Part shown: positions 1 through 27,718 of the stretch, piece by piece | How the letters are laid out: every line of letters starts with the position of its first letter | Position numbering within the stretch: position 1 is the stretch's first letter | Source: Bradyrhizobium yuanmingense | GTDB lineage: Bacteria > Pseudomonadota > Alphaproteobacteria > Rhizobiales > Xanthobacteraceae | Length of the DNA stretch: 64,000 nucleotides | Direction: 5' to 3' | Assembly (NCBI RefSeq): GCF_900094575.1 | Contig: NZ_FMAE01000002.1 | Span: forward strand, 1-64,000 | Program-made: the position numbers and the translations under genes | Notes under the pieces: model-generated | Databases searched by the model: none | Told to the model about the DNA's origin: nothing | The model's input: only the letters and a program-made list of their open reading frames with translations

Positions 1-1319
1 ATGAACTTGTGGATCTGGGCTTCGCTCATCTTCTCGAGCTCGGCCTCGGTGACGAGACCGGACGAGAGCGCCTTGGCCTTGATCTTCTCGGTGTTGAGGC
101 CGCGGCCGTTGTCGGCGATGCAGATGATGATGTGGCCGCCCTCGTGATAGGCGGACAGGCGAATGGTGCCCTGCTCGCCCTTGCCGCTGGCGAGGCGCTC
201 GGCGGGGGTCTCCAGGCCATGATCGGCGGAGTTGCGCACCATGTGGGTGAGCGGGTCCTTGATCAGATCGAGCACCTGGCGGTCGAGCTCGGTGTCGGCG
301 CCGTGCATCTCGAGCTCGATCTGCTTGCCGAGTTCGGATGAGAGGTCGCGGACGATGCGGGGCAGCTTCTGCCAGGCATTGCCGATCGGCTGCATGCGCG
401 TCTTCATGACGCCTTCCTGCAGCTCGGCGGTGACGTTGGAGAGGCGCTGCAGCGGCACCTTGAACTCGGTGTCCTCGTTGCGGCGGGAGATCTCCAAGAG
501 CTGGTTGCGGGTCAGGACCAGCTCGGAGACCATGGTCATCAGGTGCTCCAGCGTATCCACGTTGACGCGGATCGACTGGTTGGCGATGCGGTCGCCCTCG
601 CCCGCCATCTCGTCGGCCATCGACTTCTTCGGCGCGGCCTTTTCCTTGGCGGGCTTTGCGGCTTCAGCAGCCGGCTCGGCCTTAACCTCAGCCTTGGCCA
701 CGGGCGCGGGCACCGGCGCTTCGATCGCGGTCTCGCGGAAGGCGCGCTCGAGCTCGTCGAGCGAAACCTCGCCCGGACGCAGCGGACGCTCCAGGGTCTG
801 ATCGACCAGCGTGCCCATGGTCATCTCCTTGGCGGGGGCGGCTGCAGCGGCGGGCGCTTCCGGCACCAGCGGCGGCGCATCGGCAACGGGAGCCGCAGTG
901 CCGGCAGTCGGCATCGGCTGCGCCGAGCCTGACATCGCCGCCATGCCCTGCTCGACCATTGCCTCCAGCTTGTCGATGAGATCGCGGTCGTTGCCTTCCG
1001 GCTCGGCCTCGGTCGCCTCCAAGCCAGCCAAAATCTCCTTGATGCGGTCGATCGAGGACAGGATCACCGTCACCGCCTCGGCAGTGACAGGCATGCCGTC
1101 ACGGAATTTGCCCATCAGGGTCTCGCCGGCATGCGCCAGCGCTTCCAGCCGCGGCAGGCCGAGGAAGCCGCAGGTGCCCTTGATGGTGTGGACCAGGCGG
1201 AAGATGTTATCCAGGATCTTGGCGTTGTTCGGCTCCTGCTCGAACTTCACCAGCTGATTGTCCACGGTGTCCAGGCTCTCGCTGGTCTCCGTCAGAAACT
1301 CCCGCAACAGATCATCCAT
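1..1319 (-). CDS. cheA: Chemotaxis histidine kinase CheA, N-terminal 439 residues (runs off window)
   Basis: CheA autophosphorylates on a His in response to chemoreceptor arrays and passes the phosphate to CheY/CheB. The start is ATG at 1317-1319 (MDDLLREFL). The P1 Hpt domain carries the phospho-acceptor in HTIKGTCGFLGL (His44). An Ala/Pro/Glu-rich linker follows (roughly residues 130-215), then the dimerisation helices. The ATP-binding domain begins with an N box HMVRNSADHG near residue 355 and a G1 box DNGRGLN near residue 400. The rest of the ATPase domain and the CheW-like domain lie beyond position 1. A dyad motif at 1438-1451 sits about 120 bp upstream. Identification is certain; which chemotaxis cluster it belongs to cannot be told. 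Confidence 0.96.
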   Translation of the reverse strand, partial: MDDLLREFLTETSESLDTVDNQLVKFEQEPNNAKILDNIFRLVHTIKGTCGFLGLPRLEALAHAGETLMGKFRDGMPVTAEAVTVILSSIDRIKEILAGLEATEAEPEGNDRDLIDKLEAMVEQGMAAMSGSAQPMPTAGTAAPVADAPPLVPEAPAAAAAPAKEMTMGTLVDQTLERPLRPGEVSLDELERAFRETAIEAPVPAPVAKAEVKAEPAAEAAKPAKEKAAPKKSMADEMAGEGDRIANQSIRVNVDTLEHLMTMVSELVLTRNQLLEISRRNEDTEFKVPLQRLSNVTAELQEGVMKTRMQPIGNAWQKLPRIVRDLSSELGKQIELEMHGADTELDRQVLDLIKDPLTHMVRNSADHGLETPAERLASGKGEQGTIRLSAYHEGGHIIICIADNGRGLNTEKIKAKALSSGLVTEAELEKMSEAQIHKF

Positions 1320-26590: not shown

Positions 26591-27718
26591 TTACTCCTTG
26601 TCCGCTTTACCTTTTTTCTTCCCGTTCTCCGTGGAATCCCGGTCCTTGCCGTTGCCTTCCTTGCGGCGATTGGTGAAGCGCGCATTGCCAAGTCCGGTGC
26701 CGATGGTGAGCACGCCCCAGCGGTCAACGTCCTGCATGAACGGTACTTCCGAGAGCCCCTGCACCACGCCGTCATTGTGCATCAGGATCGCGGTGTCGTG
26801 CTCGCCAATAGCGGGGATGCCCTCGATCAGGCTCGCCGGCAGGTTGAACTTGCTGCTCTCCCAATTGCCCGGCAGATTCTGCGCGCCCTTCTCGATCGAG
26901 CCGTCCGGGTTGATCACACCGGGACAGGCGATGCCGATGAACGGCGCGAGCTTGTAGCCTTCGGCCTCGGCCTCCGTGATCAGCCCTTTCAGCATCTTGG
27001 TCAGCCGCTTCACCGCGCCTTCGCGCGTCGGCTCGTCGTCGGCGTGACGCCACAGCTCCGCATGCACCACCTTGGCCTTGGACAGATCCTTGGCTTTCTT
27101 CCAGCCGGTTTCCACCACGCCGCAGCGGATGTTGGTGCCGCCGATGTCGACGGCGAGAATGCTGTCATGAGCCTCGAAGATCCAGGACGGCGCCAGGTGC
27201 AGCGCGCCGATCAGGCCGGCCTCGTCAGGATGATGGCGGATCGGCTGCAGGTCGATCTTGAAGCCCTCGGATTTCAGGATGATCTCGGCGCGGGCGATCA
27301 CGAGCTCGCCGAGCCTTGAATCGCGAAAGCCGCCGCCGACGACGATGCGCTCGGTCTTGGCCCAGGCCTTGGTCTTGAGGAATCGGCGCGTGACATAAGC
27401 GAGCTCCTGGGAGAAATCCTCGATCGCGCTGTGCACCACGGCCGAGGCCTCGGTGTCGTCGCCGATCAGGATGGCGTCCAGCGTCTTCTTGTTGATCTCC
27501 TCGGTCGGCACCTTCCCGAACGGGTCCTCCCCCGTCTTGCGCAGCGGCTTGCGCCAGCGCTCGAGCACCTCCCGGAACGCGCCCTTGCTGGCGCGGTCGC
27601 CGAGAAAGCCGTCCTCGTCCTTGATCTCGATGTTGAAGCTGTCGACGTCGACCGACGGCAGCCGTTCGGCGCCATGCTGGGCGATGCCCGTTGTTTTGAC
27701 CAGTTCGTCTGTTGCCAT
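26591..27718 (-). CDS. ROK-family kinase-like protein with circularly permuted lobes (375 aa)
   Basis: ROK kinases normally begin with the ATP-phosphate motif DIGGTKI and end with IVLGGG...AGLIGAA. Here the order is reversed. Residues about 95-176 carry the usual C-terminal part (ERIVVGGGFRDSRL, HPDEAGLIGALHLAP). Residues 187-345 carry the usual N-terminal part: LAVDIGGTNIRCGVVE, IGIACPGVINPDGSI, the catalytic Asp315 in HNDGVVQGLSE, and LTIGTGLGN. The Cys-rich zinc motif of classical ROK proteins is missing. The first 80 residues are specific to this protein, and the tail is Lys/Asp-rich. The start is ATG at 27718. It may phosphorylate a sugar, as the N-lobe catalytic residues are intact; the substrate is unknown. 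Confidence 0.8.
   Translation of the reverse strand: MATDELVKTTGIAQHGAERLPSVDVDSFNIEIKDEDGFLGDRASKGAFREVLERWRKPLRKTGEDPFGKVPTEEINKKTLDAILIGDDTEASAVVHSAIEDFSQELAYVTRRFLKTKAWAKTERIVVGGGFRDSRLGELVIARAEIILKSEGFKIDLQPIRHHPDEAGLIGALHLAPSWIFEAHDSILAVDIGGTNIRCGVVETGWKKAKDLSKAKVVHAELWRHADDEPTREGAVKRLTKMLKGLITEAEAEGYKLAPFIGIACPGVINPDGSIEKGAQNLPGNWESSKFNLPASLIEGIPAIGEHDTAILMHNDGVVQGLSEVPFMQDVDRWGVLTIGTGLGNARFTNRRKEGNGKDRDSTENGKKKGKADKE

Follow-up and report, generated by a model that had tools for sequence, protein, structure and literature searches.

The locus examined here raises the question of whether a protein of the ROK family of sugar kinases can carry its two lobes in reversed order along the chain. 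The gene lies within a contiguous stretch of 64,000 nucleotides from Bradyrhizobium yuanmingense, which was analysed as a whole and is referred to as the window. Comparison of sequence profiles indicates that the encoded protein is very probably a ROK-family sugar kinase that has undergone circular permutation in nature. It would thus be a case in which evolution has maintained a whole-lobe permutation within a much-studied family of sugar kinases, and would offer a natural test both of the tolerance of the two-lobe kinase clamp to altered chain connectivity and of the role of the ROK zinc loop.

The open reading frame and its parts

The coordinates, the strand and the motifs quoted for this gene in a first-pass annotation, which was made from the letters alone, were all found as described. 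Most of the nearest orthologues share the ATG at position 27718 as their start; reading from a TTG further upstream would give 413 amino acids, and this longer version is mechanical only. The parts of the gene are as follows:

26591..27718, minus strand: whole open reading frame of the probable circularly permuted ROK protein, 375 amino acids plus stop
27191..27682, minus strand: ROK C-terminal lobe, first in the chain, residues 13-176 (hhalign, VIA)
27329..27337, minus strand: GGG of RIVVGGG, residues 128-130, kept in 149 of 149 relatives; presumably the adenosine-side loop of the C-lobe
27161..27190, minus strand: short linker, residues 177-186, bridging the ordinary C- and N-termini (the best rotation cuts fall at residues 180-188)
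26666..27160, minus strand: ROK N-terminal lobe, second in the chain, residues 187-351 (PF00480 positions 2-141 of 294, hhalign, VIA)
27131..27148, minus strand: DIGGTN, residues 191-196, with D191, G193 and G194 in 149 of 149 relatives; presumably the phosphate-1 loop
26771..26776, minus strand: N315-D316, kept in 149 of 149 relatives
26687..26701, minus strand: GTGLG, residues 340-344, shortly before the new C-terminus (sequence, alignment); presumably the phosphate-2 loop
26594..26665, minus strand: Lys-rich tail, residues 352-375, of low model confidence

The first half of the protein closes with RIVVGGG...DEAGLIGALHLAP, and the second half starts with LAVDIGGTNIRCG, followed by HND...GTGLGNARF and the Lys-rich tail at the end. 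In an alignment with human N-acetylmannosamine kinase, Asp316 falls on the Asp of its N-D pair, which we take to be the catalytic residue. C199 and C265 are the only cysteines, and CxCGxxGC, presumably the ROK zinc motif, is absent, as had been noticed before. The C-terminal tail (26594-26665) is rich in Lys, Asp and Ser; its length varies, and it is short or missing in many relatives.

The Pfam ROK model PF00480 matched residues 188-350 only, corresponding to profile positions 2-141 of 294, and with 31.4 bits against a curated cut-off of 22.9 the N-lobe passes. The NCBIfam model NF047821 gave a weak match (E 0.0031, far below its cut-off) between residues 105-176 and profile positions 217-286 of 288; the positions of these two matches place the C-terminal hallmark of the family ahead of the N-terminal one, as the first-pass annotation had suggested. 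The polyphosphate glucokinase model NF045942 reached 21.7 bits, below its cut-off of 250 bits. The first half alone had no ROK match in Pfam, and rotating the sequence gained only 2 bits on PF00480. In searches of the PDB, the first-half profile found no ROK at E up to 1, the unrotated profile matched three chains with the best stretches at or near the start of the N-lobe, and the rotated profile picked up a single chain (E 0.0018), with only a portion of the N-lobe aligned. Plain HMMER searches thus did not reveal the permutation, and a comparison of profile with profile was needed.

Order of the two lobes

A profile of 51 relatives was compared by hhalign with a profile of 55 ordinary-order ROKs from other genomes; 60 ordinary loci had been fetched, five of which were left out because no motif or open reading frame was found. 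The first half (residues 8-184) scored 56.0 against the ordinary C-lobe (probability 95.3%) and 12.7 against the N-lobe, whereas the second half scored 98.7 against the ordinary N-lobe and 15.3 against the C-lobe; the baseline, ordinary C-lobe against ordinary N-lobe, was 15.2. The first-half profile itself scored 55.5, and 100 column shuffles of it did not exceed 20.2. Residues 16-178 correspond to columns 157-299 of the 307 columns of the ordinary ROK profile. The first half thus matches the ROK C-lobe, so the roughly 90 residues that had been described as an N-terminal addition are the front of that lobe; the suspicion that the first 180 residues might not be a ROK lobe, which would have spoken against a permutation, did not hold.

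Rotation of the sequence at 15 cut points gave a consistent picture. The score rose from 98.7 without rotation to 127.3 with a cut before residue 150 and 134.9 before residue 175, was highest (138.2-139.2) with cuts before residues 180-188, and fell to 104.5 before residue 200 and 76.7-84.9 before residues 300-330. At the optimal rotation, the alignment spans columns 2 to 297 of 325, and controls in which the N-lobe was joined to a shuffled C-lobe (n=100) reached a maximum of 108.5. In the alignment used for the tree, GFLGDRASKGAF of the window protein lies opposite GCLETYASATAV of an ordinary ROK; judged from the aligned sequences, the new chain ends take the place of what lies between GTGxGGG and the zinc motif in ordinary ROKs.

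Conserved residues and proposed mechanism

Conservation was assessed over 149 full-length relatives, mostly close ones, defined as distinct tblastn alignments that start at or before residue 20 and end at or after residue 345, with identical segments counted once. D191, G193, G194, N315, D316, T338, G340, T341, G342, G344 and N345 are invariant in all of them, and with them DIGG, the N-D pair and GTGxGN, and H15 is kept in 148 of the 149. These conserved residues make it likely that the protein is an active kinase. The glutamates expected at the sugar site of ordinary ROKs could not be made out, and the sugar must therefore be bound in a different way.

In ordinary ROKs, the E-x-G-H motif belongs to the zinc-site stretch. 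In the mechanism that we propose, the ordinary N and C termini would have been joined through about ten residues, and new termini would have opened between the GTGxG phosphate loop and the E-x-G-H/zinc-site stretch of ordinary ROKs, with loss of the zinc knuckle and hairpin as a consequence. The chain would refold to the usual two-lobe clamp, whose lobes would meet round the nucleotide, and we infer that they form one active site. Asp316 might act as the base towards a hydroxyl group of the sugar, which would most likely be a hexose, for instance glucose; the phosphoryl donor would be ATP, or possibly polyphosphate.

It is also conceivable, although rather improbable, that the permuted protein has no kinase activity and acts as a sugar sensor or regulator like the NagC/Mlc-type ROK proteins. 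The zinc site is gone, sugar-site residues are changed and ROK repressors are among the structural matches, all of which would fit a sensor; however, the N-D pair, DIGG and GTGxGN, invariant in all 149 relatives, would be dispensable for a pure sensor, and Pfam, which returned ROK and a sub-threshold Hexokinase_1 match, gave no helix-turn-helix match at E up to 1.

Predicted structures

AlphaFold2, run with 32 sequences, yielded a best of five models with a pLDDT of 78.3 and a pTM of 0.79; the whole-protein models vary, with mean pLDDT from 78.3 down to 58.6, and the first half modelled alone had a pLDDT of 64.3. In VIA comparisons, the second half (model residues 183..351) aligned with the N-lobe of the ROK structure 2yhw with Z 10.0 over 147 residues at 2.6 Å. 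For the first-half model, the best ten VIA rows were all ROK, and nine of them aligned from chain residue 116 or later, for instance 5nck (134..269 of 291, Z 7.8) and 3vgk (168..305 of 310, Z 7.4); the exception among the ten, the ROK row 7rhe, spans 14..387. The Z values of these first-half rows do not exceed 7.8, a range which may mean only a common arrangement, and from rank 11 onwards the rows were non-ROK, comprising other actin-like and unrelated chains. Foldseek found nothing for the first-half model at E 0.001 or better, and the matches in a viral fold library were confined to general actin-like and RNase H-like folds.

For the whole model, tandem human hexokinases were among the top Foldseek rows. 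VIA placed model residues 35..333 on residues 288..673 of a tandem human hexokinase chain, a span which we take to run from the last part of one half into the first part of the next, with an rmsd of about 30 Å; such a value would follow if the aligned lobes sat in different hexokinase halves. Overall, the predicted structures agree with the permuted order, at modest Z.

The fold pseudo-repeat leaves room for another reading, in which the protein has the general two-domain build of actin-like proteins, with the domains in ordinary order, and the second domain resembles a ROK N-lobe by chance; indeed, CoaX-type pantothenate kinases can also be aligned to the chain without any change of order (3.2-3.5 Å over 183-190 residues). 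This is very unlikely, as the first half is specific to the ROK C-lobe in the profile comparison and colinearity over the full length appears only once the sequence is rotated.

Distribution and phylogeny

Searches for the permuted family covered the phylum of the window, plasmids and named genomes. Among the 41 nearest genomes, 26 carry the gene, namely all 25 of the genus and one of the 16 others, and the same lobe order was found in 54 of 100 genomes of the family sample. In the order sample, 28 of 199 genomes matched; one of these matches is an ordinary ROK N-lobe only, which leaves 27 permuted. The phylum sample gave matches in 46 of 299 genomes, 16 of which (18 proteins) were full length, and the other 30 were weak and restricted to the N-lobe; three relatives from outside the class are 48-50% identical. 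Matches were also found in 207 of 72,556 plasmid records, chiefly from Rhizobium (111) and Sinorhizobium (79); in 204 of them the match extends over 80% of the protein or more. Among the plasmid matches listed, the gene is annotated variously as 'ROK family protein', 'glucokinase' or 'hypothetical protein', or no gene is given. The scan of named genomes detected at least 80 loci, nearly all of which, among the matches listed, are from Bradyrhizobium or Rhodopseudomonas.

A rotated profile, run against 249 genomes that are largely the same sample as the 299 of the phylum, matched 44, comprising 13 genomes (15 proteins) with strong and 31 with weak matches (at most 31 bits). The C-lobe piece lies upstream of the N-lobe piece in all 15 strongly matching proteins, and no close sister of ordinary order was seen among the 249 genomes with this profile. 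A tree was computed from 72 rows, among them 17 permuted ones that had been rotated back. It unites the permuted rows in a single group, with a support of 100/100 in a bootstrap that had not settled, on a long stem of 3.59 changes per column.

The order is common to relatives in other root-nodule and soil bacteria, which argues that the permutation is natural and no artefact. That two ROK fragments were joined by an assembly error or in a pseudogene, a reading for which the broken extra copies in some genomes of the genus (G007) might speak, has a negligible probability, since such a join is not expected to recur in independent genomes, the same intact order is present in many of these and in plasmids, and both halves show a dN lower than dS in each of the five pairs compared (for example, 0.092 versus 0.468 overall). 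The circular permutation proposed in the first-pass annotation is upheld by the two-by-two profile comparison of the lobes, the rotation scan, the predicted structures, the lobe order in orthologues and the low dN relative to dS in both halves.

Several single records deserve mention. Split or fragmentary extra copies occur at G007:C5:14630-15681, G289:C151:167216-167338 and L114:2271-2378, and the Bradyrhizobium genomes with fragmentary extra copies also hold a full-length one. A record titled Frankia sp. RB7 (L070) contains a relative that is 88% identical; this may be an assembly from Bradyrhizobium that was misnamed or is contaminated. Plasmid p195_2 of Bradyrhizobium sp. 195 (L213), which is typed as conjugative, carries a paralogue of 80.7% identity with a recombinase gene near it, so the gene may move. 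Furthermore, a relative is present on pSymB of Sinorhizobium meliloti 1021, which makes the question testable in a model symbiont. The ROK regulator in the part of PMC6200981 that was available is encoded on pSymA and is thus a different gene.

Gene neighbourhood

In the window, the gene is flanked on one side by genes which we take, from their sequences, to be rplU, rpmA and obg, and on the other by an alpha/beta hydrolase gene; no gene of trehalose metabolism adjoins it there. The genome of the window also has its own ordinary Glk and one other ROK match. rplU and rpmA are present at 72 of 102 loci and at only one of the 22 loci L024-L038 and L142-L148, the first fifteen of which have shorter flanks, and the widest set of loci has no neighbour common to all.

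A trehalose-phosphatase homologue is close by in 8 of 27 more distant loci (about 10-11.5 kb each), in a scan whose queries came partly from the scanned loci; these eight come from three of the twelve families, and the homologue shares the strand of the permuted gene in three of them and is divergent in five. In two more of the 27, a HAD phosphatase follows the gene, and Pfam confirmed the trehalose-phosphatase in two tested loci and the HAD in one. On plasmids, otsB adjoins the permuted gene in six of ten regions, five by annotation and one by tblastn. The loci with otsB or a homologue near the gene are L146, L147, L222, L225, L227, L230, L231 and L236, and those on plasmids L211, L212, L215, L217, L218 and L219; otsB is divergent at some loci and on the same strand at others. 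Because of shared ancestry and the uneven sample of loci, this link is a lead and not a statistic.

From this gene context, we propose that the protein might be a hexose kinase beside trehalose metabolism in some of these bacteria. It is tempting to speculate further that a separate enzyme family, retained in rhizobia and their relatives, arose when a ROK kinase was permuted at its lobe boundary. The new ends would then stand in place of the zinc and sugar-specificity loop, and would give a new substrate tied to the metabolism of trehalose or trehalose-6-phosphate; this is a tentative idea, and we regard it as possible but rather doubtful.

Comparison with known systems

In the literature searched, mostly outside subscription journals and preprints, the portions available contained no description of a permuted ROK protein. 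As far as these portions go, PMC1079889 deals with permutation between kinase folds in general terms, PMC2213659 with an ADP-dependent glucokinase with a segment swap, and PMC1976428, PMC10326533 and PMC7824862 use the wording of permutation in unrelated contexts.

The bacterial glucokinase Glk (PF02685) gave only sub-threshold Pfam matches and is a separate family, although it has the same broad fold class as ROK. ROK repressors of the NagC/Mlc type differ in that they begin with an N-terminal helix-turn-helix, whereas the first half of the window protein is a C-lobe. Some zinc-less ROKs resemble polyphosphate glucokinases, and a close tie to the latter was therefore considered; it was not supported, as the first half scored only 13.4 against a small profile of the five proteins named below. 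In the tree, the permuted and the polyphosphate-glucokinase-like groups are both on long branches and may join falsely.

The zinc motif is also missing from some ROKs of ordinary order. Five short zinc-less ROKs (L179, L180, L188, L193 and L200), which match NF045942 weakly and below its cut-off, share with the window protein the missing motif and a GTGxG-S/T/A-A loop, and the second half of the window protein aligns well with them (65.1); in contrast to it, they have the ordinary order and only 237-251 amino acids. With the ROK family PF00480, in its glucokinase/N-acetylmannosamine kinase branch, the window protein has in common both lobes, DIGGT, the N-D pair, GTGxG, the GGG of the C-lobe and the closing D-x-x-G-x-x-GA stretch; it differs from the family in its reversed lobes, in being without CxCGxxGC and in forming a separate long branch.
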